Below, in pieces: positions 1,790 to 58,100 of a stretch of 64,000 nt of DNA (position 1 is the first letter of the stretch; every line of letters begins with the position of its first letter). Origin of the DNA: Protonemura montana (Eukaryota > Arthropoda > Insecta > Plecoptera > Nemouridae). The translations under genes and the position numbers were made by a program. The DNA lies in NCBI GenBank assembly GCA_947568835.1, contig OX387602.1, positions 29,870,133-29,934,132 on the forward strand, written 5' to 3'. The notes under the pieces were generated by a model, which worked only from the letters and a program-made list of their open reading frames with translations, had not been told where the DNA came from and made no database searches.

Positions 1790-3438
1790 CTGTAACATTC
1801 GAGAACACACCGTTCTTGTCAACGAGGTCACAAGGCGGTGGGGCGGCCTTCGAGAGTATCAAGTTGGGTTGGAAGATGTCTTGACTATAACGTCACTAAC
1901 CTCCGCATCGAAGATAATGTGTGTGAATGGCTCCATAGCAACGCTTGCTATGTATTAAGAAAATTTCCCTAGCTCAACATTTGAACTTTTCCAAAGTGCT
2001 AATACTGTAACGAGATAAATGGGTAAAACGGGGTCGTCTTATGACAGACAATGAAGGCGATTGCATGATCATGAAGTGCCCCTCCACGAAAGCAAGCGTC
2101 TGAAAAGCGCGCTACATTATTTTCCCTCTCACGAACGTCGACCGCAGAAATTTACCAGCATCCCTCGAGACGAAACTCTCGCCGTCCAATTTTCTACTTG
2201 CCTCCTTTTTATACACACGTATCCCACAGGGAGGGAGAGATGAATGTTACCACTCGGCATCGTTCATCGCCAGCTGGCTGAGTCCACCAGCTCGCATCGA
2301 CCTACCCGGCCAGTCGAGTATACCCACGACGGCTGATTAATATTCAGCGTCGAGCTTCGGCAACGGCGCGGGAACAGAGCAGGCAATGCACCACCCTGGG
2401 GCTGAGACACTCACAGACCACCGTGATCATTTTCTACTGCTTTTCACATTCTTTTTGGAAGAATGCTTGGTGACCAAATCAGGCAATCTCATTGAAGACA
2501 AGATCAATTGCATAATTTTAAAGAGAAGTCAAAGGAAACTCATTGTTTGTCTTAAGCGGAATGAGACCGTTAGGCGGCCAAGTCATCCGCCATGACCTTA
2601 AGCCGCACTACGCTCCACCATGCATTTGAAATCCTACGGATACGTGTCTGAATATCGATGCCGTAAAATGTTCGCTCTAGAAAATAGGCTTTCGCCCTGT
2701 CGAGTCTGGAACATGGAAAGCCTTTTCCTCACTCCCTGATTCGGCCGACCTCGGCAGTCGTCGGTCAAAATTATCAACTGTAATGCATTATTCAAAACGA
2801 GTCGATTGAAAACGAGTCGATTGAAAACGGCTTGCTGTACGATGAAAGAGTCTTGAACGCGTTCATTTCCGCCGCCTTGACGGAAAGCGGCGCTCAAGAG
2901 CTCGATCGCTCGCGGATCACGTTCACATTTGGATAACGCATCCCTGCTTTTGATCAGGAATCAAGTAACCAATTTCATTCCCGGCGCTGCGATCGGTCGC
3001 TCCCCGACCGAAACGTTCCACAACTGCGCGCTTAGCGTGTTTTTCATTATTCGCAACGGACACATCACGAGCTTCACGACCTATAAAACCCAAAGTTGTC
3101 TTTGATACATTTTAGAAAGTACAGGCAAGCGGGTGGGGTACTTTGTTTTAATCATAGAGTCTCGCGTTGCCAGTTAAGGAAATTTCATCACGATTACGAT
3201 GGTCCTTTTCAAATGCTGGCTGACGGTCTATGGGCCTCAGGTCTGTGTATGCTACATGCGCTGTGAATTAATTATCCCAGCGTTGGCTGTGATCCGCTAA
3301 TTACAAGCAGCTTTAGAAAGTCGCGGCGAGGACGAAGTACATACAAAGTTACAAGGGTAGGAGGGGGCACGTACCAACCAACCTGTCCCGTTCACCCCCC
3401 CCCCCCCCCACCCTCTTTTCCTCGACGAACGTGCTAGT

Positions 3439-3837
3439 GATTGGTTGATTTGATTTGCTGAGTTTAACGACGCACTGTTTTGACAACGAGCACTGGTATA
3501 ATGGCGTCAGTTTTAGATTAGACGAGAATGATAATAAAATTACCGAGTCTAGAAGAGAGGAGAGAAAACCAGGTGCCGGCACGTAGTTTGCTCCTATCCA
3601 AGAGCACTAAGAAGATAACCCGCTTCGAAAGAATGTACAACGCGAACAACAGGATTGCTACACAAATCCATGCTGTCGAGGGGTTGATAAGTAAGTTGAA
3701 TGACGTTCAATATCTCTCCCGGACAGAACTGGACGTGTATGGTGGTCACCGATCCAATACCTTACACAATGCAGTGTTGCTTAACTTCAAAGATCTCACA
3801 GAAACCAGTGTTTCAACACGCCCATTGGCCAAAACAT
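3439..3837 (-). mobile_element. 5S-derived SINE, copy 1
   Basis: Reading from the minus strand, the copy runs from a diverged 5S-like head (near 3720-3836, GTGACC / GGTATTGGAT) to the tail motif GTGCGTCGTTAAA (complement near 3460-3480). It matches the other copies in the window in order but is truncated and diverged. A C-rich homopolymer flanks the tail side. Confidence 0.6.
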
Positions 3838-5856
3838 AACTGATAAGGTTGCAAGTTTTGGAGCTAGAACAAGAGAAAATTAAGCTGTAAAATAAAGCCA
3901 TAAAACTGAATTATTTTTCCTCCCCACGCACGCACTCCGAGCTGTCCAACAAAGTTGTTTTATTTAGCGTTTTGTTAAAACGACACCGGACTCGTGCTTG
4001 TCAGGTTTACAGCGTGGCGTCGGCGTCGGCGTCGGCGTCGGTGTGACAGCTGCGCTGATCCCAAAAAGCGCTCGGTGTGGTTTTCGTTGCGTGCCCGAGT
4101 TTATTTGCTGGCCTCTTCATTGTATTACCTCTCCGCGTGACTCCACGAATCCGCTCGAGGAATACAAGTCTCACTAATGGAAACCGAGACACATTCTTTG
4201 CTGAACAAGAGCAACTTCTTCGCGCGGGGTAGCCGATACTTTTGTTTCAGTGGGTTCGGGGGGAGGGGGGGGGGGGGGTACATTTCGTGTATGCAAACAT
4301 GGCGTGGTATCGATCGCTCCGAAGGTCAGCTCTGCTCGGCAAATCCTGAATTGTGGAATCCTTATTTATCACGCTTCAACGTGGAACGATCTTCACGGGC
4401 ATGGCCTCCCTAAGGAATGCTGACATGGATTCGTGGATCTTGTGACATCCTAATCACTAACGCGCAAGAACAAGATTGACCATAGCATTCCCGCTGACAC
4501 TTGCTAAATGATTCACCAACAATTATGCTTTGTTAGTCAATTTAAACCATTTCTCAATGCATTTCTTATTAAATTCTTGAACCGATCTCTGGACTTTGGT
4601 AGACTTATGTTCAGAAGTTCGATGCATGTTCAATGTTTTGAGGGTTCATAATGTACCTACTCCGTAACACTGGCTATATTACGGGCATGTCTAAAACATC
4701 TTTTCCCGATTGCTCGGTTTTGTATCTGTTGTCAGAAGCATCCCGTGGCTTTGCCCCTCGTCACGTCGCTCGCAGGCGCGGCCTCTTTCTTGTCTCCAAC
4801 TTGTCAACCGTTCTGCGGGAACTTTCCTTGCTAGAACTCTACCGTTAAGATGTCTTTTGCAAAGTTTCCTCTGAGCTCGTGCCAATTTGCCAGAACGTTT
4901 CATGTAGTCGAAAAATGTTGGGAATAATCACATCAAAAGGATTTTCATCTGAATAGCAAACACTTGTACCTATTCTTGTCGCAATATGTAAACCAGAATA
5001 CAATCATGGCAATCCTAGCAAAGCTTTCGTTCCCAAAGAAAAGGGGAAGGTAAAATAAGCGTTTAGCTAAAAGCAAGTCGTTGCTATGTCCAAAGAACGA
5101 TGCTGCCTGCAAGCTGTGTGTGCCGTTATTTCTTAGCCATATTACAGTTTTCCTCCACGTATCGTATCCGGCCTGGCAAGGCACCGGCAGGGCTGAACCA
5201 GTGACATCGTGTGGGGGTAACAAGACTCCTTGGCGCATACAAATTCGCCCTCGTTCCCGAGCATAGGAAACCAAGGTGCCGTTCCACGTTGAACCACCTC
5301 CATCCTCTGCAAGATCGCTCATCGTTTAATTGCTTAGCAGCGAGGTGTGTTTGGATCCTATTTCTGTCCCTAGAGCGAAACAAGAGGTTAGTTTTGTTAC
5401 AATTAGCGATTGTTATGAATATTTCACCCTCGTCGACATGAAACAAGTCTAGGCCGGTGTAAGCTTATCTCTTGACCCTCACTTGTGTTTCAATTTTTCA
5501 ACTCTGACGGTCCACTCTGAGATAAAATCGTGAATTGAACATGTTATGTGCGGGAAAGAGGTACAGTGTGAGAACGAGCTCAGCCTCCGTCATTGAATTC
5601 CATTCGCACATAAGGTTTCTCTGCGATACAAACAAAATAACCGACAAACAAATGGCTTTAGCAACAACAACAAAAATCATTTTCACTTAATTTTTTCCTG
5701 GACTCGCTATAACCACGTCCGCGTGCCGAACCGGAACTAGATTAGGACTCGGAAAAAGCGATCGCGCTCACTTCCGGCGATTCGCGTTCAACAAGTCGGC
5801 GCCTGTAAATGCAATTTCACGGCGAGATTGCATCGCACCCCATACGCCAACGCGAG

Positions 5857-19485: not shown

Positions 19486-21308
19486 TGCCAATTGAAAAGA
19501 TTAGATGAGTTCAAGTTCAACTATTTCATGTCTGCAAGGTCAACGGATAAGATTATTCAAGAGTACAAATTTAAAATAAAGTTGCCGCTGTGCACTGGAC
19601 TCTTCACTAGACGAGTACTGTTCAGCAGAAATCGCAAAAAGTGGTGGACAGGATGCTTTCGACGGTTTGTAAACTGGGAGTGAAGTACCACATCCTTCGC
19701 CTAGCGGCGGCGAACTCAAGCTCACGCTCATCCACCCCTCCCCACCGAGCCTTGACGTGTAGTTTCAAAGCAAACAAATGATAACACATATGTATAATAT
19801 ATTAATATATATATATATAAATCAATTAGCTTCAATTCGAAATGTTATGACAGGTTTAGTTTTACGTGGTTTTACTTATTGTAATCAAATCTGTAGAATA
19901 AACAATCTTACATTTCCTAATTTTACTCAAAAGACATACGAATCACATATTTACTTTGAAGTCTCGAGGCTCTGATGTGTACTTTTACGCAAGGAACAAT
20001 TACACGCAACGCGCAACATGCAACACGCAGTCGAAAACAGACCGCTCGATGGTCTAACTAAAGAACCAGTGAAAGATATTAGATGATAACAGACGAGGAA
20101 GTTATCTGTCAGTAAATCTGTTATCGACCCGGATCGAATTGTGCATTGATAACTCGTAAACAGAGCGAACTAAACCCAACTAATAGACAACACCAACCAA
20201 CCAACCTAGCAACCAACCAACCAACCAACCAACCAACCAACCAACCAACCAACCAACCAACCAACCAACCAACCATCCAACCAACCAACCAACCAACCAA
20301 CCAACCAACCAACCAACCAACCAACCAACCAACCAACCAACCAACCAACCAACCAACCAACCAACCAACCAACCAACCAACCAACCAACCAACCAACCAA
20401 CCAACCAACCAACCAACCAACCAACCAACCAACCAACCAACCAACCAACCAACCAACCAACCAACCAACCAACCAACCAACCAACCAACCAACCAACCAA
20501 CCAACCAACCAACCAACCAACCAACCAACCAACCAACCAACCAACCAACCAACCAACCAACCAACCAACCAACCAACCAACCAACCAACCAACCAACCAA
20601 CCAACCAACCAACCAACCAACCAACCAACCAACCAACCAACCAACCAACCAACCAACCTAGCAAGCAACCAACCTAGCAAGCAACCAACCAAGCAACCAA
20701 CCAACCAACCGAGTAACTAACGATTTGAGCAGAGATCCTCATTGTGGTCTCCAGTGCCTTCATTCGGCCGGTCTATTTTCCTTCGGTTCTATCAAAGGTT
20801 CTACGGTACCGCCTAATTATTACTCTGCACAAATCTTGCTCAGATCAGTTACTGCTTCAGTTAGAGTTAAAAAGTTTGCTCTGATTATGAGTTGGTCATG
20901 TAATTCCACCAAGTCCTAGACTCACTTCCCCTTTTCTAATCTGACATTTATCTTGTTGAGGATTGAAGCATCAAGACGAAAATGTAATCGAAAATACTCT
21001 AATTACACAGAAATAGTACACCCCAGCTTCTCACAAGATTTATTTATTAAACTTCAGATAGGTATTGTACAAGGCAGCAAATATTTTTCTCGCAATTCGA
21101 AATTCCTATGTCTAAATCCAATGGATGACTCCATGAATGGTGCCCTCTGAAACATGACCGGACACCTTACATAGCTCAAATAAAAGACTTTAGACTAGTT
21201 CCTGGACTGAAATGTGCAAGAACGTATGCTCATTTTGTCAGAGTTCTCTTGCGCCATGCAGCAACGGTAACTTGGAGCAGCCGATTGTGGCCTAGCTTCA
21301 ACCACAAG
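19486..21308. other. Intergenic region between the Ig-receptor and lectin genes
   Basis: Contains the CCAA microsatellite. TTTATT repeats at 21039-21048 could serve as minus-strand AATAAA polyadenylation signals for the lectin, about 265 bp past its stop. No other gene seen. Confidence 0.4.
20191..20713. repeat. (CCAA)n microsatellite of about 520 bp
   Basis: More than 110 tetranucleotide units, with rare interruptions (CCATCCAA at 20272; CCTAGCAAGCAACC near 20656-20690). All frames are stop-free across it, producing artefactual Thr-Asn-Gln-Pro or Gly-Trp-Leu-Val repeat frames that are not genes. A short GGTT tract at 17181-17212 is the same motif on the other strand. Confidence 0.97.
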
Positions 21309-23525: not shown

Positions 23526-26229
23526 ATGAAGTTCTTCGCGGCTTGTATCGCTGCTACGGTCATGGCCACGACCTTGGCCCTACCTCTTCAGGACGCCGAC
23601 AGCAAATTAGATAACTCCACCATCACGACCTTCTCGTCTCTTGAGGACGACGGCATCGAATTTGGTAACTTTAACACCGCGACCTTAGCTGTCTCTTTTG
23701 GTATTAACTCTATGCCAACATGGGCAATCCTCTCGTTTCTTCTATGATCTAAGTGTTCTACTGTTCTGTCTTCCAGAATACAAGGTCGTCGGTGACATGA
23801 GGTTCCCAGTAGGCCTAGAGCCTAGGGGGGCGGTGATCGACCGAAAATGGCCCAACGGAGTCGTCCCATACGTCATCGGCAACTACCGTAGGTTCCGATC
23901 CGATTTAAAACTCCGCTTGCTTGATTATTCTTTACAATTGACTTAAACCTCTTCTTGTGATGGCAAAGGAAGATGAACGTTTAATAGCTCAGCATATTGA
24001 AGCTTTGAATTGAGTGCAGCAATTGCTTACCTTGCTAAAATAGGTAACTCTCTTTATTGTCTTTTTATTCATTTAATCGCATTAATATTTACAGATACAC
24101 AAATTTGCAAGCGTTTTGGATTACCTTAGGCATTTACTTTCTTTGTAAAATGTAAATCATAATTTAATTGCTGATTGAGCCGACAACTGCAAAAGCTTGT
24201 AAAGCGACTTTCGTCTGCTCGCGTTCGCAATCACACACCTCGAAAGCCCTCTTTACCACTCCCTGGGCCCGAGAGGCATCGAGGTCGCACTGAGTGTTTC
24301 CATTTGCGCAGCCGCCCACGAGCGCGCGATCATCCAGAACCTCTTGAACGAGATCTCGAATCGCACTTGCGTGCGGTTCGTGCCGCGCACCAACCAGAAG
24401 ACGTTCCTCGACATCTTCAACGGCGACGGCTGCTGGTCGTATGTCGGATACGTCTCATACATGAGTAAGTATAAATCTTGCGAATCAATCAATTCTTCCC
24501 GGACTGCACGTGAAGCTTCACTCGGCAAACTGTGCTACACTCAGTAAAGGTCAAGCTAAGCATAAAACGGCCACCATATTCTTCCTCCCAATCGTCATCT
24601 CCACAATACCACCATTTTACAAAAACATGACTGGTGCCCCGATCCACAGCCAACCAGAAACTGTCGCTGAAGAGTCCTGGCTGCGTGACGCGGCCCGTCA
24701 CCTTCCACGAGGTTCTGCACGCACTCGGCTTCGTCCACGAACAGAACCGCGAGGACCGCGACTACTTCCTGGCCATACATCTCGACAACGCCAAGCCTGA
24801 CGGTAAGTCCTGACGAGGCTACAGCTTACAACGCAGCCAGAGCACTGCACCATTGAGAGCCGAACGTTTAAATGGAACATTCTTTTCAAGTCTTGTGGAG
24901 CAGCAACATTCAGATTCACATTTCCTTCACATGACGTTGTCCTATGTCCACAGAGGATGGACTGATGAAATCCTCCGACACGTCTTCCGTCGGCATCCCC
25001 TTCAACGTGGCGAGTGCCATGCACTACAGCCCCATGGACTTCAGTACCAACGGCAAGAGAGTGATGGTGTCGACGGTGAGTGAGACGCCGTGGGAGATGA
25101 GGATTGGCTAGAAGTCTGGTATAAATGCGTTCACTTATAAATTTAAATATAAATATAAGTATATATAATGAGTGGAAAGAGCTCAGTATTGATTGGACGC
25201 GCCTGCAGGGGTTTCAGACGGTCCCGGCCCAGTTCTAACAAGTCATTTCTGAGGGGTAACGGAAGAAGCCAAGAATTGATAAGGCATTCAATTAGCTTGA
25301 GAACCCATATAAACTCATATGAGAACCAAATTACAAGCAGTATAGTTGGACAACTCGGAAAATGCTTAATCAATGGCATTATTTAGATCTACTTCAGCAC
25401 TAGTTAATAATGATGATTTGTGGTGTTTAACGACGCACTGTTTTAACATCTGGCCATGCGGCACTGGTCTACTGGCGTCAGTGAATGCGTGGATGATGAT
25501 GAGGATGATGTGGAATCTAACCTAGCCTAGCGTAGAAGGTAGGATGGGAAACCCGGTGTCGGGACTTAGCCTACTCCTGTCGAAGAGCACCACTTCCAAG
25601 GAGACCACCGGCTTAACGTCCCTTCCGAAGGATGGTACAACGCGATTAACAGTATTCCTCCACAAATCCATGCTGTCGAGAGGTTGATAAGCAATCGGCG
25701 AGTGAAATTGCTGTACTAACTTTCATCCCACCAACCTCTCTCCCGAACAGAACTGGTCATGTGTATGATGGTCACCCATCCAATACCTGACTCAGCGCAA
25801 TGTTGCTTAACTTTCATCCCTCCAACCTCTCTTCTAAACAGAACGGGTCATGTGTATGATAGTCACCCATCCAATACCTGACTCAGCGCAATGTTGCTTA
25901 ACTTCGGTGATCTCACGAGAACCGGTGTTTCCAACACGCCAAACCGTTTGGTTATTAATGAAAACACATATGCACTTGTTCAGTCACGTTTTTTAAAATC
26001 AGATAATTGAGATTTTGATGGAGCAGTTTGATGGAGCAGACTAGAGGCCGTGATGAACCTCTAAAACAAAACAAAGTTTACTAAATTATTTTCCTCTGTT
26101 TTCTGTCACCAGAGACCGCACCATCCTGTCGGCAACACTGGCATTGCATGGTCAGACTGGCGTAGAGTGAATCGCCTCTACAACTGCCCCGCCTCGTACG
26201 AGCAAGCAATAGACAAGCTCGAGTTTTAG
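23526..26229 (+). CDS. Astacin-family (M12A) zinc metalloprotease
   Basis: Six exons: 23526-23664, 23777-23887, 24312-24464, 24650-24802, 24954-25075 and 26113-26229, totalling 795 nt or 264 residues, with all junction phases consistent. Signal peptide MKFFAACIAATVMATTLA is followed by a short propeptide with YKVVGDM, matching the FxGD aspartate switch that holds the zinc before activation. The mature domain starts near RKWPNGVVPYVI. It carries RTCVRFVPRT-like sequence, the catalytic HEVLHALGFVHEQNREDRD (three zinc His and the Glu base) and the Met-turn SAMHY. It ends YNCPASYEQAIDKLEF with no CUB, EGF or ShK extension, so this is a minimal secreted astacin, as in digestive or hatching enzymes. 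All catalytic residues are intact, so it is probably active. AATAAA at 26553-26558 is a candidate polyadenylation signal. Confidence 0.92.
25413..25949 (-). mobile_element. 5S-derived SINE, copy 4, with duplicated head
   Basis: Minus-strand SINE in the last astacin intron. The head occurs twice (about 25735-25812 and 25815-25930), the copies meeting at GTTGCTTAACTTTCATCCCTC. The tail complement, TTTAACGACGCACTG, is at 25426-25440. Confidence 0.8.
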
Positions 26230-37100: not shown

Positions 37101-40100
37101 GATGATTATTTCGTGGCCTGGCTGCTCTCGGGGCAAGGGATTGCTGGAGTGGCTCTCCCACCAGCCCCAGACAACGCAGTTCAAGTGCCGGTCCCTGAGC
37201 CGGTCGGTGCGGATCAAGATACTGAGGACAGTGATACGGATGATGAGGAACGTCGCGACGGAGAAGGAGAGAATCTCTTTGATCTTGACGAGGTTGTCAT
37301 AACCGATGGTGACATCAAATATGCTGTCACGCTCAAGCTTGTGGAGAGAGAGCTGGAAGAACTGCAGAAAAGAATTGAAATAATGGTTGCAAATGCTAAT
37401 GACAACAAGTATGGAAAATATCTGTTAATTATAGCGGAGTGCATGATGCATATAGTACCTGACTGTTACCAATTTCATCAAACAAACACCTCGCTTTAAT
37501 GTTAGGTCACGGCCACAAAATGTGTAGCGACAAACAATGGGGTTTTCCTCCTGATGATTTAAGATGTCATAACTTGAGTAAAAAATTCAATGCAATGGTT
37601 AATGTAAGAGTTCATCGGTAAATACCCATGATCACTTCAGCAATTTTTCTCCATGTTTCTACGCAGTTCCCTTTTTCAGATAATTATAAAAGCATGAATA
37701 ACAGTGATGGCTACAATATCATGTGAAGCTTTCCATAAGAAAGTTTACTACATAATGCATACTCTTCCTTTGACATGACTGTTGACTTACTCAAGCTGCT
37801 AAGCTGTTACTTGAAAAGTGTTTGCCAATTTCTGCAAGTCATGTACAGCTGCGCAAGATTGGTTAACGTTGTTCTAGCCGAGGAAATCAAGGAAGACCAC
37901 AAGCGCAAATCAGGGAGTTGAGGAACCAGCGTGCGGCGCTGAATGAACAACATCGTTTGTTATCAGCGTGGCAAAATGCACCGCGACCACTGGCAGCTGA
38001 AATTGACAGGATGGAGCTGCTCCTGGAAAACCCTGGTATGTTTCCTGTGTGTACAGGCTAGGTAAACAAATTCTTCACTCCTCATTTCATCCTTGAGCAG
38101 CAGAGTTTCTATTGGCACAGAGAGTTATCACTATGGTTGTTTATGACAAAAACTATTTGAACTGGGTTTTGAATGCAAAGTTTCCTTATTTTAAACTAAA
38201 CTAATCTAAAGTTGTTCTTTACTTAGCATTTAAAACCCAGTTCAAATAGTTTTTTGTCAAAACTAGTGCTAAGGTTACATCAAGTAGACATGAGTCTAAA
38301 AACAATCACGGTTGTTTATATTTTTCTTTGATGTCGTTCAAGACTTTGCTAGTGGCAGGTGGCACTCAATTCTTAATCTATATGTTTTAATGCTTTGTTC
38401 AAGGGAAAATTTGAACTAGCTAAGCAACATGCGTTGTGTACAAGAGTTTAATAAGGGCTGAGCTTTGATTAAAAAAGCTGAATCAATTAGCAATATGGTT
38501 TTTGAAGGTCAAAACATATAAAATTGTTTATCATGTTTTCTTATAATTGTTTATAAATAACAATATTTATTGGCAGAAAAATGAAAATACCAGTTCAGTC
38601 AAATTCAACATTTTGTTCGTAAGGGTCATTCCATGTGAAATAGGACCACTTTAAATGAGTTTTGACCTTGACCGACTCAGAATTTCATGAAATTCGGCAC
38701 ACTTGTTCAGAATGTTGGTTTGAGTAAAAGTATTTTTTTGTTTGTTTTTTACTCGAAGAGTTCAAAAGTTACAGGGGGTTGAAGTTCGGGTGTTTTCACC
38801 CCCCGCGCGCGTATCACCGTCACATTATATACTTTATCTCGGGTTGTATGACAGCTACAGAGTTCCAGGAGAGCTCATCTGAAAGCTAATTAAATTCTCT
38901 ACTTGAATATATAATAATATGTTCCACTTGGTGGACAGCTAATTTACCTTGATTTTCTACATCTGCATTTTCAAAGAACGCCACTGGAAAAAACCCTCCC
39001 CTTTCATTTACCTAAAAAAAATGTATTAACGTTGCCAATATATGAATGAATATTTGTGCCAAAATTCAGAGTTGGCCCTTCACAGGTTTTCAAGAAAAAA
39101 AATATCTTGTGTAAAAAAGTTTTTTATCAGGCAGTTCCAGAGCATAGATCCTATACCCACAATACATAACAGCTCAGGCTTTTATCAACATGGTGAGTAA
39201 TGCTCATTTTACATTTGATTGTGTTTGTTCCACTTTTCAATACACGTTTATTCTTGAAAGCACACTTTCATCAAGTGACATGTTGAAACTAGAAATGTGT
39301 GCAGAAGTCAAAAACGTATAATTTCTTGTCTGAACCTCATACTTGATAACCTGCATTAGTTTCTCTTCACATCTTGAAGAGTGTGGTAGTGAATTTATTG
39401 TCCACACCCTTAACATTTGTTGTATTTGTATATTTAAACAGTGTGTTTAGTTGGACAGCTCTTGAAAGAAGAGTGTGAAGAACATATGCACATTATTGGC
39501 AACTTGGAAAGTGACAATCAGATTTTATTAGCATTGCGTTCAAAATGTGAAAATATTACATCAGTGTGCAGTTACATGAAAATACATTAAAATCCCCAAC
39601 TTTGTTACTGCTTTCTTGGAAAAATCTTCATGCGAGTCATATTCGTCACCGAGGACACAAGTTTCAGCCGCTTCTTGAAACTCTTGGTTGCATCACGGCG
39701 TTTTCTTTTTAAATATAATTTAGATTTACCTTTTAGTCTTTTCCTGTTGAGTGGAGATACACCAAATGCAGCTTAAGACTGGTTAACTAGTTTTAACGCA
39801 GAATCTGTTTCCACGAAAGGTTAGTCAGGTTCAGCAGATTTCGTTGGTGTCTAAATGGAAATGGTATTTTATTCTTTTTGCTTTTGTGGTAGTAGTTTCC
39901 GACAGGCCGAGCATAATTTCTTCCCAGGAATAAGTTCCACAATCTGCAGATATTTATTTCTGTATGTTAAATTAATTGATGTCAACCTTTTACCTTTACT
40001 AGTTAACCAGTCTTAAGCTGCATTTGGTGTATCTCCACTCAACAGGAAAAGACTAAAAGGTAAATCTAAATTATATTTAAAAAGAAAACGCCGTGATGCA

Positions 40101-43100
40101 ACCAAGAGTTTCAAGAAGCGGCTGAAACTTGTGTCCTCGGTGACGAATATGACTCGCATGAAGATTTTTCCAAGAAAGCAGTAACAAAGTTGGGGATTTT
40201 AATGTATTTTCATGTAACTGCACACTGATGTAATATTTTCACATTTTGAACGCAATGCTAATAAAATCTGATTGTCACTTTCCAAGTTGCCAATAATGTG
40301 CATATGTTCTTCACACTCTTCTTTCAAGAGCTGTCCAACTAAACACACTGTTTAAATATACAAATACAACAAATGTTAAGGGTGTGGACAATAAATTCAC
40401 TACCACACTCTTCAAGATGTGAAGAGAAACTAATGCAGGTTATCAAGTATGAGGTTCAGACAAGAAATTATAAGTTTTTGACTTCTGCACACATTTCTAG
40501 TTTCAACATGTCACTTGATGAAAGTGTGCTTTCAAGAATAAACGTGTATTGAAAAGTGGAACAAACACAATCAAATGTAAAATGAGCATTACTCACCATG
40601 TTGATAAAAGCCTGAGCTGTTATGTATTGTGGGTATAGGATCTATGCTCTGGAACTGCCTGATAAAAAACTTTTTTACACAAGATATTTTTTTTCTTGAA
40701 AACCTGTGAAGGGCCAACTCTGAATTTTGGCACAAATATTCATTCATATATTGGCAACGTTAATACATTTTTTTTAGGTAAATGAAAGGGGAGGGTTTTT
40801 TCCAGTGGCGTTTTTTGAAAATGCAGATGTAGAAAATCAAGGTAAATTAGCTGTCCACCAAGTGGAACATATTATTATATATTCAAGTAGAGAATTTAAT
40901 TAGCTTTCAGATGAGCTCTCCTGGAACTCTGTAGCTGTCATACAACCCGAGATAAAGTATATAATGTGACGGTGATACGCGCGCGGGGGGTGAAAACACC
41001 CGAACTTCAACCCCCTGTAACTTTTGAACTCTTCGAGTAAAAAACAAACAAAAAAATACTTTTACTCAAACCAACATTCTGAACAAGTGTGCCGAATTTC
41101 ATGAAATTCCGAGTCGGTCAAGGTCAAGGGTGGTCCTATTTGACATGGAATGACCCGTAAGCTAAAAAAAAACAAAAAAAAAACGTAAATCTCGACCATA
41201 CTTAACTTTGCTGGAGGTATTGTATTGTATTTGTGAAACAGTGAAACAGTAGTATTAATAGGGTGAAATAGTAGTAGTAGTAACATTCTTTTTTTAGCAA
41301 ATTTGCTATTTGGTATATACATTAACACATTTTAAAGGTAACACAGTAATAACTAATAATTATTTATATAATAACTATTATATTAACTATTATATTTTAC
41401 ATAATTATTTATACTTATAGGCAATAATGATCAGTATTCAATCAGTAAAGGTCAAGAACCTCAATTTAAACAGTTTAAAAAATAAAACCCACTAATTCAA
41501 GGAGTTGAGATCCTCTCTCTTAGAGCTGATACATTTGGTTCCATACAAATCCCTCCTGACAAGTTAGAATCCAGGTTTATGATCCCGCAACAATTACATG
41601 CTATGCCGACAGTGGCGCTGTGGGATCTGAACGCTCCCCAGCGCCGGGCCTGCTACGAGTACTGGCTGCGTTTGCTGCGCCGCTCTCTAAACACTCCATT
41701 GGATGAGTTGGAGGTGAACTATCGACTCAAAGCTCGCGAGCTGGAGGAGACTCGGCAGATGGCAGACCTGGAGATCCTCTCGAAGGCTCACGTTGTCGGC
41801 ATGACAACTACCATGGCTGCCAAGCTGCAGCCGCTGTTGATTGCGTTACGGGCACGAATCGGTGAGCATTGAGAACACATCGGCTTGAGAAAGTTCGGGC
41901 AGTCTTTGCTGTCAAGTTTGATTTGATTTATTTTTTATTGTTTTTACAAAGTACATTGTTTGACAATTTATTTAATATATCTAATAACTTAATACAAGTA
42001 TAACTAATCCTAGTTAACATCCACTCTTTCTTTGTTATAAATGAGAAGATTTCTGATATTTCCAACTCGTTACAGACATACTTATTTTTAATGCATTAAA
42101 ATATTAAGTCAAAATATATCACGTCGTTAATTTAAGTGGGTTATTATATTTAATGAGGGCCGATTTAAATTCATCGCAAGAATAAAATTCTCTTTCAATG
42201 AGAAATGATTTAATTGATAGTTTAAAGGTGTTGAAGTTTGATGTTTTTAAATTATTTGGTAGCAAGTTAAAAAGCATAAAGCCAGAGAGTTTAGTTTGTC
42301 GTTTAATTTGTGTTAATGACATAGAATCTCTTTGATCTTCGAAGCCACCCCTGCTTTGCGTATGATGGTTGTGATTACTTGTAGAAAAAAAGTTAGCGTT
42401 AAGTTTAATAAAAATTAAAACTTTATAAGGCTGATTTCTGTGTTAATCTTTGGCCATAGCTATCTTTTCCCACAAGCCGTAATTTGAAAGACCAGAAATA
42501 ATTTTGAGTTCGATCACATCTGGAACGTAGATACCCGACGTGAAGCCAGGCACAGCTATGCCCCGATGTATCAAGTTGACTTCCGTCTAAAAATAGATTG
42601 CATTTTTTTGTGCGTAAACCAACAATTTTTTATATTAAAGATAATTTATCATCTTTGGACCATTTATGAAATCATTAAAATACGCTTTCAGCTTGCAACT
42701 GATTATTATACCAAATTATAACCCAAAATAAAACCATGAATTAGATTGACACTCACATGCGATCGTTATGAAGAAATGGCTCGACAAAAGAATCACGTCT
42801 TGTTCTCGAGCAACCTAGTATTACAAACGAGAAGAGAGAGAAGGCTTTGACAATTTAACAAAGAGCACTTAGATAAAATTGCAAATAACAGCATCTATCG
42901 TAACAGATCCAAATCTTGTAAGCTAACAATCTTGCAGCCGAGTGAAATGGCATACCACAAGGCTCCCTAACCTCAAAATTTGGCTTAGATATTTTACCCG
43001 GGATGGAATATCTTTCCGTGATAAATCCCTACGATATCCAAGGAGACTCCATTAATGGTCCTTTAAATGGTACTTATTTCATGCCCCCCTGTGAAACAGA

Positions 43101-46100
43101 TTAATGCTAGCTGGATTCTGGCTCCAGATTGCACCTAAAGGCAAGGGTTTTTGTGCTACAGTGATTGTCGAAGAAGCAGCTGAAGTTACCGAGTCCCACA
43201 TTATTGTGTCGCTCTCCCAGTACTGTGAACATCTTATCCTCATCGGTAAGTATTACTGTTGTGAATTATTGTACTGCGTTGCATGTGATTTTTGCTGGCA
43301 CTAAAGCCAAAGCTGACTAGGGTACCAATCAACTACATAACATTTTATTAGGAACACTAAAAAGACTGTACCCATTGCAATCATTCATAATTTAAATAAG
43401 ATGTCACAACCAATACACCACTGTTACCAATTCAAATGTCTTCGTCAGCAAATACCAATCTGAAGCAGAAATAAATCAAAATTGTACGTTTTATTGAAGA
43501 CTAGACTAGACATTATCTGTCAGATTCAAAAGATCCAGATACATTGCTACCTAAAACATTGTAGCTTAAACAAAAGTTGGCAACATAAATGTCTTCTTCA
43601 GCAATTATAACTGACAGAACAAATAAATCAAGATATTACTATTAGCCTAATTTTTAACTTTGAATTAAGAAGCTCTTGGACACATCTCGGAAAAATTTCT
43701 CTCGAAACGATTATTCCGTTTGCCACCAGGGGACCACCAGCAGCTGCGCCCGTCCACCGCCTCGTTCCGTATGGCGCGAGAGTTCCACCTGGATGTGTCG
43801 CTGTTTGAACGCATGGTGAGCAACGGAATGCACTGCGCGCAGCTGGGAGTGCAACATCGCATGCGCCCCGAGGTGGCAAGCCTTGTGTCTCCCTCGATCT
43901 ACCCCGACCTTGCCAACCACGAGTCAGTCACGCGGCTACCTCCAGTGCGAGGCGTACGCAACAGCGTCTTCTTCTTCACACACTCGCGAAGGGAGAAATC
44001 GGTAAAGATACGAACTGGGCGAGGCTAGGTGTCTTCCATTCAAAAGACCAAGTTGCAATAAAGTAATGAATCAAAGAAAACATTTGTGATGTAGTGACTG
44101 TTTTGCTCTGTTTGGATTGACTTGTGACCTTTAAAAGGTAATTTTTTAAAGTCTTATAGTTTGGAACCTCTTTTGGTCCTAGAAAAGTAATTTTTTAAGG
44201 TTCGATTTAGGAAAATTTGTCAATTCAAACACAAATCTGAATCACTTTACCATTCCAAGTTTAACATTAAAACATAAAACCTGTAACATTATAATACCTG
44301 TAAGTAGCAAAGTGGTTACTATAGCACCTCACGTGAAGTTCTTCCGTTTTTTGGAATTTTTTTTCAAAAATCAGTGAGTTGTCCAATATAAATTTCCTCC
44401 CGTTTTCTTGCAGGAGACGGAGACTAGCAGCAAGCGCAACCCGTTCGAGGGAGACTTGGTGCTGGCGTTCTGCCGATATCTGCTGCAGCAAGGCTACGAG
44501 CCTTCTCAAGTCACTGTCCTGGCCACTTATTCCGGCCAGCTGTTCTACCTGAAAGAGGTCAGACATTTGAAAACATCGTCTTTCTTATTTTTACTGATGC
44601 TAGAAAACATGATCAATCTGTGTACGTGTCCCATCCTATGCCACATTTCAAACGATACCTATTACCGATAAACGATTGTGAATTGTGATGATATCTCTTG
44701 TTCGAGTAAAGAATTTTTATTTATTTTATTTGATGCTGCATGCAATTACATAGTGTTTGTGTAAGCCTAAGTGCTAAGGAATATATGCCATAAAAATAAA
44801 AAATTAGGAACATGATTGTAACAATGATTTAGTAGTAGAGATTAAATATAATAATAATAATAATAAATTACAATGGTATTTATAGTAATTAATGATGGGT
44901 ATAAATGGTATGGGTTTAGGTAAGGCACGCTAGTCGTTTCATTCTACATTATATTTTATATATAAGTATTTTGAAATTCTTCTAGTGAGTAGTTGGGGTT
45001 CTGGATTAGGAAAGATTTGAGGGTTGCGTCAAAGATGGTGCGAGTTGGTGATGAATGTTGGGAGATGGTTGGGAGATAAATAAATAAAGCACCCGAGTCT
45101 TACAACCCCTATTAATCCTCCACGTTTTGTGCGTTTCAGAAACGTAAGGGATTCCCACACTGAAGGACGTCCACATGACCATTGTTGACAACTACCAAGG
45201 AGAGGAGAACGACATCATCCTGCTCTCGCTTGTGCGAAACAATGAAGATCAGAGTATCGGCTTCCTGAGCATCACCAACCGCGTCTGCGTGGCCCTTTCC
45301 CGTGCCAAGCAGGGCCTCTTCATCTTCGGTCAGTGTGAATATATCTTGGTCAGACTGTGTAGCAATCAGTTCCGAGTCAACAAAAGTTTTTGATGATAAA
45401 ACTATCACATAATTCAACACCTGAGTTTGGCAAATTGTAGACACCAGGTCTCATGAGATCACTGAACACTGCGCTGAGTCAGGTATTGGATGGGTGACCA
45501 TCATACACATGACCAGTTCTGTTCGAGAGAGAGGTTGGAGGGATGAAAGTTAAGCAACACTACGCTGAGTCAGGTATTGGATGGGTGACCATCATACACA
45601 TGACCAGTTCTGTTTGGGAGAGAGGTTGGAGGGATGAAAGTTAAGCAACACTGCACTGAGTCAGGTATTGGATGGGTGACCATCATACACATGACCAGTT
45701 CTGTTCGAGAGAAAGGTTGAAGGGATGAAAGTTAGTACAGCAACTTCACTTGCTTTGCTTATCAACCTCTCGACAGCATGGATTTGCAGAGGAATCCTGT
45801 TGTTCGCGTTGTACCGTCCTTCGGAAGGGACGTTAAGCCGGTGGTTCCCTTGGTGCTCTTCGACAGGAGTAGGCTATGTGCCGGCACCGGGTTTCCCCTC
45901 CTCCCTTCTAGGCTAGGTCAGGTTCATCATCATCCACTCATTCACCGACGCCATTAGACCAGTATCGCTAGGCCCGTTGTCAAAACAGTGCGTCGTTAAA
46001 CCACACCAATCAATCAACCTTAAACTGAACTAAACAGGGTCACCCTTGTCAAATAGGTTTCCAACATTTGTAAAGGACTAATCTTGTGCTTTTGTTCAAA

Positions 46101-49100
46101 TGTTTTCACAACTTTAAGCCTTTGGCATTTTAGATGGAGAATTCAGATGGATAATGGTAACAGTTTTTGACAAAGATGATGGGATTGTTAACAGGCAACA
46201 TGAAGAGTCTGGCAGCACGCAGCAAGATCTGGCCAAAGGTACGAGACGTACTTGTGGAGCAAGGAGCGCTGGGAGATCGACTGCCACTACGCTGCCAGGT
46301 GCACCCACATCAGATCACCGAGATCATTGAGCCCGCAGACTTCCGCAAGGTGACTTCCTCAATATAGATTTTCCCCACAAACAATAAGATGCCATGAACG
46401 TAGCCATGACGACCTTTAACTGCCGTTCCAAAGGTGGCTGGTTTTGCTCAAAAATCCTTCTTGGCCAGCTGCGCTTCTAAACTTCGGCAGCTCAGAGTTT
46501 CTGGGCGTGGTCGTTTCTTCCGATGAATGTAGGCTTGGCTTGGAAGTGGGTCTTGCCGCTGTCAGCTGGATGGTCTGAGATGATCTTGTGCAGACACTGC
46601 AGACTGGCTCTTGCAGGTCTGGAGCTCAGTAGCTCCCACTTGCAAGCCTTGGATAGTTTGACGTGGTCTGTTAAACTTGGCTGTTTATTGGTTGGTATTT
46701 GATCAGGTTTCTGAGGGCGGATGCCAGTTGCTGTGCAATACCGAACTGCTTTGCGGCCACCGGTGCTTTCGACAGTGTCATATTGACGACCGAGATCACT
46801 CTCAAATCCCTTGCTTAGCTCAGTGCATTCGGTAAGTCATGTCAAGCCATTGATAGCAGGCATTTTTCAGACAATTTTTTTTCAATTTTTATGATTCGTT
46901 TTCCAAACGATAGTATTCGTATTCTCTTTGAAATTTTACTTTTCGAGAAGACAAACACTTGATTGGTTCTTTACTGCCGTTGAGGTAACAGAACTTTGCA
47001 GGCACCACCAATCAGAGCTTAGTAATAAGCTATTTAAGCAATTTGAAGATAGCTGCCAGAAAGGCAGCAGAGGGGCATGGTTTAGGAATGTTCATGCCAA
47101 CTATTTAAGATGGATTATTGCACATTTTGGCAAATTATTTGCGCAAAACAAAGTATTGGATTTGTGAACCATATTTCAGTTTTTTTACAGTCCTATAACC
47201 ACAGACCATCATACACATGACCAGTTCTGTTCGGGAGAGTGGTTGGAGGGATGAAAGTTAGTACAGCAACTTCACTCGCCTTGCTTATCAACCTCTCAAC
47301 AGCATGGATTTGTGGAGGAATCCTGCTGTTCAAGCTGTACCGTCCTTCGGAAGGGATGTGAAGGCAATGGTCCCCTTGGTGCTCTTCGACAGGAGTAGGC
47401 TACGTGCCGACACCGGGTTTCCCCTCCTCCCTTCTAGGCTAGGCTAGGTTCATCATCAGCCTCATCACCATCCACTCATTCACCGACGCCATTAGACCAG
47501 TGCCGCATGGCCAGATGTCAAAACAGTGCGTCGCTAAACACCATAAATAATAATAATATAACCTCAGTGCTATAACTTTATATTTTATGCTAATTTTAAA
47601 TTTATTTTTCCTGTTATTCAACATTCTGTTTGTTTGTCAGCGTGCCCCCTAGATGCCTGTTGAATCACCCGTGCACCCGACTCTGCCGCGAGCCATGTGG
47701 GGATTGCGTGGTTCAAGTGAAGCGCACGCTGGCGTGCAGCCACGAGGCTACGATTGCGTGCCACGTAGACGTCGACAGGTACCGCTGTCAGCGCAAGGTA
47801 CCTGCCAAGGACCCACCGTGCGGCCACTTGTTCAAAACGTCCTGCTACAAGCCCCCGGAGCAACAGATCTGCCCGCATCAGTGCGACATACGACTCGACT
47901 GCGGGCACAGCTGTGATAACAAGTGTCACGTTCGTGTTGATCCCGATCATATTGAGGTGAGCAAAGGAATTTGAGTTTTAAGAAAAAATATTTGTACTGG
48001 GTTTTGAATGCTAAGTAAAGGGCTACTAAATTTCCCGACGTTTCGCAACATATACTAGTTACTTCTTCAGAGGTTTGAGCAGTCCTCTGAAGAAGTAACT
48101 AGTAGATGTTGTGAAACGTCGGGATATTTAGTAGCCCTTTACTTAGCATTCAAAACCCAGTTCAAATAGTTTTTCTTAAAACTAGTGCTAAGGATAAATC
48201 AAGTAGAAATGAGTTTAAAAACCATCATAAAGAATTTGAGTTAGTTGTTGATTGGTACTGACAGTTTCAAAGCTATGATCTCGTGGACTAACAAATGCAC
48301 TTGATATTCATCAGATAATACCTATATTGTATAACAGCTAATCAGTGTGCAAGACAAGGGAGTCTGAGCCTATCAACAGAACTGTCAATTGAAGTTTATT
48401 TTGAATAAAGTTAGGACTGCTGTCCAGGTGGAAACTTACAGATAAGAAAAGATCTCTTACACCTTTCTTCGGTCAAATGTTTTCCAAAGTCTTAGAAAAC
48501 TAATTCGAAATGTCCATTAAATGAAGGGTGTTCAAAAATTTAGGTATTCTACGTACATCTAGGTATTCTAGGTACATCTAGGTGTTCCTACATCTAACTA
48601 TCAGCGTTGAGTGTAGGTTATAGGTAGAGAAACAACGTCAATGTTACAGTCTCTGCGTGAATGATGGCCGCCAAATGACCACCTTACCGACAAAAATGCA
48701 GAGTACCAGAACATCACGTTAAGTGGAGCCACTGTCGTATGAAATTTAATTTCAATATTTATAGTAGGTTACTCGCTTTTTAATATCGTTACGTGTATAT
48801 AAATCGTTGAGGTAAACATTGATGGAGATTTTTTAACCATGAAAAGTCTCAAAAGCGAGTTAACCTACGAGAAATATCGAAATTAAAATTCATACGACAG
48901 TGGCTCCACTTAACGTGATGTTCCGGTACCCTGCATTTTTGTCGGTAAGGTGGTCATTTGGAGGCCATCTTTCACGCAGAGACTGTAACATTGACGTTGA
49001 AACTCTACCTATAACCTACACTCAACGCTATCAGCTTTCTGAAATCGATGTGTCATGTTGGGCAGTACTTGTGTGGGCATCCTTGCTCGCGGAACAATGT

Positions 49101-52100: not shown

Positions 52101-55100
52101 ATTTCCTACGCTCACCCAACAATTTGTTTGTATAAATGTGAATGCGAGGCTCACTCCCAACTCCCGCGTACGTCAGTAAGTTATTATTATTATTATTTGT
52201 GGTGTTTAACGACGCACTGTTTTGACATCTGGTCATGCGGCACTGGTCTAATGGCGTCGGTGAATGAGTGGATGATGATGAGGATGATGATGAACCTAAC
52301 CTAGCCTAGAAGGGAGGAGGGGAAACCCGGTGTCGGCAGGTAGCCTACTCCTGTCGAAGAGCACCAAGGAGACCACCGGCTTAACGTCCCTTCCGAAGGA
52401 CGGTAAAACGCGAACAGCAGGATTCCTCCACAAATCCATGCTGTCAAGAGGTTGATAAGCAAGGCGAATGAAGTTGCTGTACTAACTTTCATCCCTCCAA
52501 CCTCTCTCCCAAACAGACCTGGTCAGTAAGAAGTGTGTATGTAATTCCAGGCCTATCGGTGGACTCTGAGGTGCTGCTAGCTCGGTGCACTGCGCCGTGC
52601 GCCGGCGTTCTATCTTGCGGCCATCCCTGCGCGGGGACGTGCGGAGAATGCCTCCAAGGTCGCGTGCACGTCAGATGTAAGGAGGCGTGCGGCAGGGAGC
52701 AAGTCTGCGGCCACGTGTGAGTATTCAACAGACGAGACGCTCTCAACGCCAGGAAACAATGTCGTGCATGCTTCGCTGAACAAATCTCTGCTACAAAATC
52801 GTTTTATGTTCTGTTTTATAATTGGTTGTTTGTGTGGTTTTTATTTAGCTTTTTAGCTATTAAAAAAAGAACAATGTTACATTTTATTCTTCTCTTCGTT
52901 CTCTTTAAGTTTATCATATAATTTAATCTTAAATTTGCTTACAGTTTTTATATTCTTCATTTTCTTTGATAATTTATTATAATCACTAGTTCCTTTAGTT
53001 AATGCTGGGTTTAATTTACAAGACTTAACAAATTTATTTTTCCTATTCCAAGTATTATGATTATGAATGCTATCTACTAACTTAATCTTCTCATTTAAAT
53101 AATGAGGTGCTAGCCCTCATTAACGAACATATTTTCCAGTCTAGCTTCCTTTCCAAAAACATTCAACTCTATTTTTATTAAAATATCTACAAAATTTAAC
53201 TTCTTTTGCATCTCTTTAATAGATGCCATTCTTTTTTCTTTTAGTATAATCTGCATCGCTCTCTTGAGAAGTTTTTGTAGCCTCCTTGTATCATTATTAT
53301 TGTTGTTATAGAAAATGGTGTTACAATTTAAAAAATGAGGTTCCACTATGGTTATGTATATCAACTTCCTTGTCCACATAGTCAAACAATTCCCTGATTC
53401 TTGATAGATAGCCTAATTTCTTACTTATCTTTTTACAAACATAATCTAGATTATGCAGAAAACTTAAGCCATTGACATTGTCACTAATTACACCTAAATA
53501 CTTTACATCCATTACATTATCAATCTCTGTACCATTAATAGTTAATTTATTCTTATTTACAATGTTGGCATTTGCATCTCAATTGTTTTAACTGGTTTCA
53601 CAATCATTCATTTAGATTTATTAACACTTAAATCACAGATAGACATACACAGATTGTCCACTCCTATGCTATTGGGAGCTACGCGAAAGCTTTTGCCCCG
53701 CAAGATTCGCCCCAATCCCCTCACCAACAAGCTAAAATAGTTTGCCCTCTGGACACGGGATGGCGCTACGTTCGCTCCCTCTCAAGTTTACTATCTGTTC
53801 CAAGCTTGCTCGGTCATCGGTCTAAAGTCCTTTCGCTCACATTCGCTCCCTCTCAAGTTTACTATCTGTTCCAAGCTTGCTCGGTCATCGGTCTAAAGTC
53901 CTTTCGCTCACATTCGCTCCCTCTCAAGTTTACTATCTGTTCCAAGCTTGCTCGGTCATCGGTCTAAAGTCCTTTCGCTCACATTCGCTCCCTCTCAAGT
54001 TTACTATCTGTTCCAAGCTTGCTCGGTCATCGGTCTAAAGTCCTTTCGCTCACATTCGCTCTCAGCGCTGCCGCTATCCTACTGTATCCAGGCGATAACT
54101 GCAGCGGAATTCGAGCAAGTCCAGCATTGAAGAAAAATGTAAACATCCCAGAAAATAATTATAATGATGCTCTGGTGCCATAGTTGGGGAAGATCGTTTT
54201 GAAAGCGATCTTTTAAAAAGATCAAGATCGTCGTCAAAAAACAATCGCGATCGAAGATCGAAGTTCGCGATCGTTTTTTTTAGATCAAATTCAAATTCGT
54301 TTCAATAAAATATCAAGTTGAATAAACATATCAAATATCAAATATCTGCGTGGTTCAATAAGAAATCAATAAGAAATAGGATTAAGTACATAAAGGGTGA
54401 TTTCTTGTTCCCTGCTTTGTTGTATCTATATTTTCATTATTAGTTACACCGTTAATTAGTTCAATTTATTGCACCGAGAAGTTCAGTTCGGTACAGAAAG
54501 AATATTGTCTCAATGCACCTCAGAGCGATGTCATGAACGAGTTTTCTTAGCTATAAATCGTATACGAGATATGTCAAATCTAGTCGGCTGCTTATTTCGG
54601 CAAGTAAAATGCTTGCTACTGAACTAAATTGTGATACCATATTGCAGCCCGTTAGACTCGGTGGATATTGCTTATATAAACACGCTTGGAAGTCGCTGTG
54701 AGCCTCTCATTGCATAAATTCACGATCATGACCAAGTCATATTGAAATTGTTGGGTGAGAACTTATGTCAAATCGCTAAATCTGGGGCTAGGATGTCGAT
54801 CAAAAAAGATTTCCGCATAGAAAATTTCGGAAAGTAATGTGGATTGTTTCAAATTTCGAAAATCTATTAAATGATAGGTACTTTGACTTGGCGGGTGCTT
54901 ATCTCAATGTTGATTTTCTTGGAATTCCCGCATTGCTGGGTTTTATAATAATATCGCCAGGCGATTACGATGTTTTGGCGAGACTGAGCAGGTGGTCCAG
55001 TAACCTTGCTGGTTGATCACGGTAAATTGATGCTAGAGAGGGTAGTTTCAACATTAGAACAAAAATTTAAACTGATTTGAAATCAGGTTTCGAAGCCGAA

Positions 55101-58100
55101 TGTAATGGTGCTTTAAAAAATTTCGAAATTCAATTATTAGCATAAGATGGTTTTGTGAGTTAAATGGCTCTGGTATTAGCGATTCTCGGAACATTTTTAT
55201 CGCAAATCGGCTTAGATATTCCGTAGTGTTTTGTTCCAAATCAAATCTAGACGCATAGCTAGACACCCACGTGATACACTCCCCTTGTGCCACGGTAGAA
55301 AATGTGTGGAAAGGGAAAATGCACACTCCCCCGGATACGTTTAACACTGCCCTATTAAAGGAAATCAACAAATAATTCACAGCTGTTACAAATCCTTAAT
55401 ATATTAGTAAATCTGAAACTGCAAACTGACCAAAACGTGATTTGTGCCCCTTTAATGACATCATTGCTGGTCGTTCTTGTTACGAAAGGATCGGTCATGT
55501 ACTGAGAGTGGAAACTACAAAAATAGGGGTATTCGCATTGCTTTGTCGGCGCTGTCTTACAAAGGGTATGCGGTGCGCTGACCTTGGCCAAGCTTATAGT
55601 TTCGCGATCGCGTAGTCAATATTATCATGAGCGAGTATAGCTGTTGTCATATATTTTTCAGAATGATTTTGTAAGATTCTTTGTACCATCTTACTTACGG
55701 CATCTCATGCCATACGGATGGCTTTTACTTTTTAGCCCTGGAATGTTGACAGCTATTGATGAGTTACGGAAAAATATCTCGTATCGAAAGATTTGAGAAT
55801 ATCTAAAGAGTTTTCGAGGGTTGCTCGAGCTCTCGGGCCCACACGTAGTCGGCGCCCCTGGTATTGGGACTTGCTTTGTATTTTCATTTGATCTCTTTAG
55901 ATGAGACTGACTTTTTGTTCTAGTTTCTTCAAATTGAAACCTGAAATATAACAATATATTGCTGTTAATGTATTTTTATTTCCCCACCCATTATGCATTT
56001 GTAATAGAAACAAAATAGGTACTGTCAGCTTGCAGTGCCTTCAGAAGGAAACACACATATGTCCCTGCTTGCGATTAAAATATAGTTTCAATATGATAAT
56101 GTACTCGCCTTTCTTTTTATTCAGCTGCAGTGTACCGACGTTTGCACCTAAACCCTTTTCCAATGACAGGTACTTCGCCAACTCCAGTACCCATTTTTTA
56201 GTTCAGCAAGCTGTACTCTCGCCCCACCACTCGGTCAAACCGATTACCCCGCACTCTGGTGGCCCAATATTCAACTGATGCTACTATACATCGCGATGCC
56301 AGCGCCCCTCAGTGCTCGCTTAACAAGTATTTTTTGCCGTAGCGTGCCGTAGCCAAAGCTGGGTAAGGTGATATATCTGTGTATGTCAATCTGTGCTTAA
56401 ATTGAATCTATTTAAATTTGTCCATTCACAAATCCGATCCAAGTCTCCGTTCATTTCTTCTATTCCCTTTTCGGTACTTATGTTAACATTGTACAATAAG
56501 TAATAACATGTCATCTGCAAGGAGATGTATAGCTGATTTACTTACTCTAGCTACAACATCATTTATGAAAAGAAAAAATAATAAGGGACCCAACACCGAT
56601 CTTTGAGGAATAATAATAATAACTCCATTCCTTGTCACCCTGACTGTAGATAAATGTATCCCATATTTGGTACTCTGTGACCTACCACTCAGATACGACA
56701 TACACCAATTTAGTATAGTAAGTTTAATGCCATAACAACCATTAAGCTTCTCTATTAGAATTTCTCTGTCTACTACTTCAAAAGCTCGTATTTTTGCGCC
56801 ACTCTTCTAGCACACACTGTATAGCAGTCTCACAAGAGTATTTTTTCCTAAATCCCGATTGACTATTTCTAATTAATTTGTTTTCGTCTAAGTACTCTAA
56901 TAATCTCTTATGTGTTGTACATAAGAGATTATTAGAGTACTTAGACGAAAACAAATTAATTAGAAATAGATTTCTAAAATTTTCTCTAGCACGGGCAACA
57001 TATTTATTGGTCGATGCTCTTCTGCTTTAACTGATCCACTGATTTTTGGTATTGGAACCGTTATGGATTTTTTGTTTCATAGGGTTTTGTCCACATTCCT
57101 TACAGTGAAACGGTTAAATCATGGTTACCTAGATTCAAAGAATTTTTGAGCTTAGATAGTTATCTTTTTTTAGTCATGTTTGACCTGAAAACTACAATTT
57201 TTGCAGCTGAGAATCGATGGAATATTGGAACCCAATCCCATTATTATTATAGTGTACTTCATATAACATTATCTATCTGTGTATTACGTTAAATTAAGGC
57301 CCATACAAATTACGATGTACTTGATTGTAGCTAAATAAATAAATACGGTTTAGGTAGTTGCTCAAGATTGATAAGAATATTGCTCGATCACGTCGGAACG
57401 GACCTTAGTTCTTTAAAAGCAATGTTTTTGTTTTTCTTGCGACTGGTAGTCTAGCTAACTCATTCACCGTAGCCACTCAGTACTCGCTAAAAACAAAATT
57501 ATTTCACGGATTCAGTTCCTCGTTCCCTGCAAGGCTTTGACCTGACACCTGTTGGTGGTGTTACAGATGCAAGTCAGGATGTGCGGAAACTTGCCCGCCA
57601 TGCACCAGTCCCTGTGCAATGCAGTGCCCGCACTCGCGCTGCGGCAAGCGTTGCGGCGTGCCGTGTTTGCCGTGCAAGGTCAGTTGCATGAACCTTTTGG
57701 TACCCCTACGCTTCCGTCGTTTTTCCGTTATAAATTGTGTTCAGCAGCAGAGTGAATGGGTACTCCAGGAATTGCACTCAGACTTTTTACTCTGCATTTT
57801 TAAAAAATGGTGAGATAAAACGTACACGCATGTGAGCGTGGGGAATAAATTCTTTAAGACAACTCGAGCATTAAAAACGATATTGTCGATAACGATCAGT
57901 CTTAATATTTCACAGACGTTATGTACAACTTGGCATATTGCTGTAGGCAATATACTGATACTCTTGCATATAAATAGATAGTTCGTTTGTTTGCCATGCT
58001 ATCTCTTGCCTGTGCAGTCCTGCTTTAGTCTCATTTCTGCTTCCTTCCGCTCTGCCACATGGATAGCCTGCACCTACATCAGTTTCACCTTGTCCATTCC

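Follow-up and report, generated by a model that had tools for sequence, protein, structure and literature searches.

Why does a near-perfect palindrome of about 2.5 kb lie in a predicted intron of a gene for a ZNFX1-type helicase? The question is posed by a stretch of 64,000 nucleotides from the plecopteran Protonemura montana (contig OX387602.1 of assembly GCA_947568835.1, forward-strand positions 29,870,133 to 29,934,132), to which, at its full length, we refer as the window. A preliminary description had proposed that a transcript of this palindrome would fold into double-stranded RNA (dsRNA) that could feed small interfering RNAs (siRNAs) back on the gene or on dispersed copies, and had kept a foldback transposon as the fallback reading. 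It is the fallback that our analysis favours, on the strength of dispersed copies, conserved ends and 4-bp target duplications: with a probability of roughly 0.93, the palindrome is a non-autonomous cut-and-paste DNA transposon of the foldback type (also called 2-TIR, for two terminal inverted repeats), which was moved in trans and sits in a predicted intron of a ZNFX1-type gene.

The palindrome is real and not a product of chance. The coordinates, arm lengths, spacer and flanking GTAA reported earlier were all reproduced: the inverted repeat spans 38623–41156 (2534 bp), and its arms, which measure 1168 and 1158 bp, enclose a 208-bp spacer. A base-by-base listing of the two arms gives 6 mismatches and one 10-nt gap. 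Three of the mismatches lie in the outermost 40 bp, and the stretches 38662–39791 and 39998–41127 differ at only 3 of 1130 positions. With 2326 of the 2534 bp in the arms, inverted repeats occupy nearly the whole element, and RNAfold pairs 95% of its bases. Its parts are as follows.

38623..41156, no strand assigned: probable non-autonomous foldback (palindromic) DNA transposon, 2534 bp, recognised by its inverted repeat, end motif and sister copies
38619..38622, + strand: left target site duplication GTAA (equal 4-bp flanks)
41157..41160, + strand: right target site duplication GTAA (equal 4-bp flanks)
38623..39790, + strand: arm 1, with the G-type end TGTGAAAT
39791..39998, no strand assigned: spacer forming the hairpin loop, 208 bp
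39999..41156, − strand: arm 2, with the C-type end TGTCAAAT
38623..38636, + strand: terminal motif GGGTCATTCCATGT, the same as the ends of L058, an element encoding a putative transposase of 860 amino acids (aa); its first 12 bases are common to L061, an element with a 702-codon frame
41143..41156, − strand: terminal motif GGGTCATTCCATGT at the other end of the element
38650..38660, + strand: 11-bp AT-rich insert at the G-type end, lacking from the C-type end in 37/37 copies read
39608..39772, − strand: remnant of transposase N-terminal coding sequence (AAFGVSPLNRKRLKGKSK...), arm 1 copy
40017..40181, + strand: the same remnant (AAFGVSPLNRKRLKGKSK...), inverted arm 2 copy
39872..40012, − strand: remnant with a Cys pair (IPGKKLCSACRK), mostly within the spacer; by eye, the intact 860-aa frame has a similar stretch

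To place the element among its kin we searched the 258-Mb assembly of the same species. Arm 1 gave 85 matches among the best 40 of 665 candidates, on 11 contigs, and the end pattern, at up to 3 mismatches, occurs at 174 places, as against none for the reversed control pattern. Among the 100 of these 174 places that were listed, and on which the pair counts rest (contig C16 is not among them), 84 make 42 element-sized pairs of 2368–3027 bp and 16 are unpaired. We read 37 two-ended elements, including the one in the window: 29 of the 42 listed pairs (13 lie outside the set), five elements on C16 and three with one altered end (L013, L033 and L042); L029, which lacks one end, is excluded from every count of 37. 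Equal 4-bp flanks bound 35 of the 37, their sequence varying by site and being AT-rich, with A or T at position 2 in 32/35 and at position 3 in 33/35. Six copies (L036–L041) show 0–1 differences over 2399 bases and nine (the L014 group) 0–11 over 2408, and therefore the palindromes have been mobile as palindromes, and recently. No frame longer than 126 aa is present in any of the 37. Thus the family combines what characterises foldback, or 2-TIR, elements: long inverted repeats, no intact transposase, and multiple dispersed copies with target duplications.

The preliminary description had suggested that a genome search with the end motif would find a transposase-bearing relative. That search yielded sister palindromes and decayed relatives; the transposase-bearing relatives were instead reached through the coding remnant and, once reached, proved to carry the same terminal motif as the palindrome. 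The fragment related to a transposase N-terminus is present in both arms of the window element, and its version in L014 served as the query (the best 150 of 232 candidates were scored, so that counts are lower bounds). It matches the palindromes, then two decayed elements at 79–81%, and in the next tier at least 90 rows, whose identity to it is 58% over 57 aa; for 87 of these, the match falls within an 863-codon open frame. One member of this 863-codon family, L058 (200–4310), is a 4111-bp element with ATGT on both sides, a frame of 860 aa counted from the ATG, and inverted repeats that include a 443-bp block at 98%. It shares its first 14 bases with the palindrome and resembles it through the first ~100 bp. 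Its left end is 99–100% identical in 40 scored copies (the best 40 of 501 candidates), which suggests a very recent burst of a putative transposase that lacks a Pfam domain: the 860-aa protein has no significant match among Pfam and PDB sequences (best E 0.051 and 0.76, respectively), and six frame pieces from the palindromes L014 and L026 gave no Pfam match above the curated cut-off (best E 0.056).

A core fragment of one decayed relative, L059, led to a second family (best 150 of 246 candidates scored), with at least 51 rows at one score, 47 of which lie in 702-codon frames, and a further two rows at 74%, in frames of 698 and 718 codons. Its members L061 (702 codons; 43–3822) and L062 (718 codons; 126–3905) have target duplications TATG and GTTG, and an alignment of the 860-aa with the 702-codon protein shows 46% identity across 698 columns. 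The proteins of both families may be active transposases. The palindromes and the two coding families all start GGGTCATTCCAT, and 4-bp duplications flank the copies read of the two coding families and 35 of the 37 palindromes. For two non-autonomous elements, the Repbase rule, in the excerpt available of PMC4455052, requires equal length of the target site duplication and termini that align over positions 1–11 with at most one mismatch. We extended this rule from non-autonomous to autonomous elements: the duplication is 4 bp long in 35/37 palindromes, L058, L061 and L062, and the window element, L058 and L061 agree at every one of positions 1–11, GGGTCATTCCA. By the rule so extended, the palindromes and the 860-aa and 702-codon elements form one superfamily.

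How the palindrome was put together can be read from L014 and L058. Aligned with L058, L014 has a left part that follows the end proximal to the open reading frame in forward direction and a right part that follows this end in reverse. Both reach into the N-terminal coding region, and the distal repeat of L058 is matched about equally well by the outermost ~480 bp of the right part. On these matches, the palindrome is either a single end of a transposase element linked to its own inverted copy, or such an element with its far repeat lengthened from the near one. This arrangement is not a recent one, since the diverged L060 and L065 (about 85–88%) cross the junction of arm and loop in the same order. 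The extent of the arm into the loop distinguishes at least three architectures, with arm lengths of 966, 1168 (the window type) and 1393 bp; other forms have internal deletions or a partial duplication. The window element tracks L009 up to position 1373 with 5 differences and then continues as an inverted copy from near 1168. The same arm/loop form is found at other sites, 0.33–0.37% apart, in L011 and L012, which lack ~130 bp of arm 1; the form has therefore itself spread, and we reject an origin of it in situ at the window locus.

The arms have also changed together. Compared with L043, the window element has 19 and 18 differences in its two arms, 15 of them identical in both; compared with L022 the figures are 18 and 16, with 14 identical. 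We counted such changes among 14 representatives (91 pairs); each arm shows 10 or more differences in 77 of these pairs. For 48 of the 77, at least half of the larger difference count is common to both arms, where independent change would give at most ~1.3 shared positions. In a tree of arms, both arms group together for L010, L028, L042, the L036–L041 group and the L043–L045 group; the arms of L009 do not pair. Renewal of one arm from the other, by conversion or template switching, suits most lineages. The ends behave differently from the arms: one G-type and one C-type end make up all 42 of the 42 listed pairs, a count whose independent cases are reduced by shared ancestry, as are those behind the 11-bp AT-rich insert, confined to the G end in 37/37 copies read. 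In L058 a single end bears a comparable insert; L061 has none. One reading of the persistently unlike ends is a requirement of the transposase; another is that conversion tracts rarely reach the ends. With arms alike in most lineages and the outer 40 bp distinct in 42/42 pairs, such a requirement becomes directly testable.

We propose the following course of events. The frame-proximal end of a transposase-bearing element, together with a piece of its N-terminal coding region, would have been joined to its own inverted copy. The product would then move in trans by its conserved ends, with transposase supplied from elsewhere, by the relatives described above or by a closer parent since lost. Each insertion would duplicate 4 bp of AT-rich target, and one of them would have landed in the predicted intron of the ZNFX1-type gene. 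Conversion between the arms, or template switching across the hairpin, would keep the arms alike in most lineages and would also redraw the boundary between arm and loop. With palindrome lineages of near-identical copies, relatives that have long open transposase frames and matching ends, and a decayed possible parent all in one genome, the family offers a tractable case of foldback-transposon evolution.

Several observations weigh against this account. Two of the 37 copies, L033 and L040, lack matching 4-bp flanks, perhaps as recombinants or through rearrangement after insertion. None of the 24 pairs with a member of the L014 group (L014 or L018) comes up to the half-shared mark; in that group 32 positions distinguish the C arm from the G arm, and the C arm stands apart in the arm tree. 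Exchange between lineages would suit this exception. Five of the 53 pairs outside the group also fall below the mark. The ends of L061 are identical over the 120 bases compared, so that asymmetry of the ends is no general rule of the group. Finally, despite the recent movement of the palindromes, our searches found no intact transposase frame more than 58% identical to the remnant, and L059 and L060, the coding relatives that stand nearer to it, are decayed.

The last of these points bears on the alternative that survives best, which refines the foldback-transposon reading and does not replace it: that the palindromes were mobilised by the transposase of their own active, unsampled parent, and not by the 860-aa family. 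Decayed L059 speaks for such a parent, as it combines a palindrome-type end and a palindrome-like N-terminal region with a core piece nearer to the 702-codon than to the 860-aa family, and an intact copy could have been missed, given that the best 150 of 232 candidates were scored and that L059 was read short of its other end. On the other side, we sought an intact parent with both proteins by tblastn in 3.5–4.3-kb stretches of 12 one-ended or decayed relatives (L054–L057, L059, L060 and L063–L068) and obtained only fragments in six and nothing in the other six. We hold this refinement tentatively, at somewhat less than even odds.

We then turn to the host gene. A Pfam scan of 10 frames placed ZNFX1 (PF25396, E 5.6e-21) and AAA_11 upstream of the element and AAA_12 downstream; six of the 10 frames had no Pfam match. 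Two additional frames farther along, 47600–47971 and 46662–46832, likewise had none at E 0.01. With domains on either side and GT/AG limits read by eye, the earlier placement in an intron of a ZNFX1-type gene stands as a prediction.

38036..41501, + strand: predicted ZNFX1 intron containing the element, bounded by GT/AG sites between two coding frames, by eye

This intron would be ~3466 bp long, or 928 bp once the element and one GTAA are subtracted.

The location prompts the idea that transcription through the intron yields a 1.1-kb dsRNA which Dicer turns into siRNAs directed back at ZNFX1 or at dispersed copies of the element. The first step follows from the sequence: a transcript would form a near-perfect duplex of more than 1.1 kb, as the RNAfold pairing shows, and a foldable repeat on a predicted intron is thus at hand. 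Inverted-repeat loci yield endogenous siRNAs in Drosophila (PMC5392987, excerpt), and members of the ZNFX1 family are, in the portions available of PMC12585102 and PMC9276528, dsRNA receptors or participants in small-RNA inheritance. Feedback on ZNFX1, however, lacks support: no 16-, 19- or 21-mer of the hairpin recurs elsewhere in the window (including its ZNFX1 exons), in L058 or in L061. Decayed L059 and L060 do share some k-mers with it, and 36 other palindromes have 60–95% of their 21-mers in common with the window element (the comparison covered the window, these four relatives and the other palindromes read). By this pattern of sharing, siRNAs, if produced, could target the palindrome family, whereas the ZNFX1 exons of the window, L058 and L061 offer them no perfect match, and siRNAs directed against other palindrome copies are a possibility. 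Moreover, the assembly has at least 42 paired sites, of which this locus is one, and a particular bond with the gene for a dsRNA helicase would take evidence that is not there; among so many sites in 258 Mb, one inside such a gene is weak evidence. The placement is thus probably an ordinary, incidental insertion and not a control circuit, and we consider an siRNA locus acting in the proposed way improbable.

Less probable again is a broader version, in which recently mobile, self-homogenising palindromes in transcribed introns make long nuclear dsRNA and the ZNFX1 copy is a self-tuning allele, with family-wide siRNA control of the palindromes; were it true, the RNA made from the gene of a presumed dsRNA-binding helicase would itself include a dsRNA substrate. 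Assembly errors are known to arise at long near-perfect inverted repeats, but an arm copied in reverse orientation by the assembler, or through fold-back chimeric reads, is the least credible explanation, and a local error at the palindrome is very unlikely, since the layout recurs, with subfamily-specific differences, in 37 two-ended elements (35 with equal, site-variable flanks), arm copies lie on 11 contigs, and the listed pairs, unlike a mirrored read, have two different ends.

Having named the palindrome a foldback transposon, we compared it with known systems. A close likeness is to the 2-TIR elements of Galileo in Drosophila mojavensis, which, in the excerpt available of PMC3573991, are non-autonomous, average 1.7–2.2 kb and are almost all TIR; the TIRs are 98–100% identical within a copy and grow by absorbing internal sequence, and subfamilies and chimeras occur, as here. 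The same source proposes exchange between lineages and TIR growth. An 84-bp unit is repeated 13.8 times within an arm of the decayed relative L059 (L059:2490–3652), with fewer units in L063 and L066; the array resembles the tandem growth of Galileo TIRs described there. Galileo is placed in the P superfamily (PMC3573991, excerpt). What sets our elements apart is the 4-bp duplication, the related 860-aa protein without a significant Pfam match, and the transposase-related coding sequence in the arms; the two Pfam hits of that protein up to E = 1 include neither a P-element nor a THAP domain (a comparison within Pfam). Sola2, in the part available of PMC3627910, likewise duplicates 4 bp of AT-rich target and has a transposase of comparable size (888 aa in Dictyostelium fasciculatum), but its amoebozoan TIRs measure 12–21 bp, as against a 443-bp block in L058 or whole arms in the palindromes. 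The palindromes are Sola2-like by target site only. By their titles alone, two further families can be likened: Tm1 of root-knot nematodes (PMC3169594), a foldback family assigned to Mutator, and Tetris of Drosophila virilis (PMC4079207), also termed a foldback transposon. A literature search for the terminal motif GGGTCATTCCATG returned two papers, with titles on liver stem cells and gut cells, and no description of the element; GGGTCA was absent from the five papers found on new transposon superfamilies.

The window also contains other repeats. A 519-bp array at 20192–20710 has the 4-base unit ACCA at 96% matches, and 4.2 copies of a 71-bp unit occupy 53764–54061 at 99% matches. On the minus strand, 56486–56806 gives a weak reverse-transcriptase match (RVT_1, E 1.5e-4, under the curated cut-off). 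Short tandem arrays of similar-looking 91-bp units lie at 25717–25904 and 45465–45734, and look-alike frame fragments were seen by eye near 3.5k, 11.7k, 17.9k, 47.3k and 52.4k; together, these arrays and fragments suggest a dispersed repeat.

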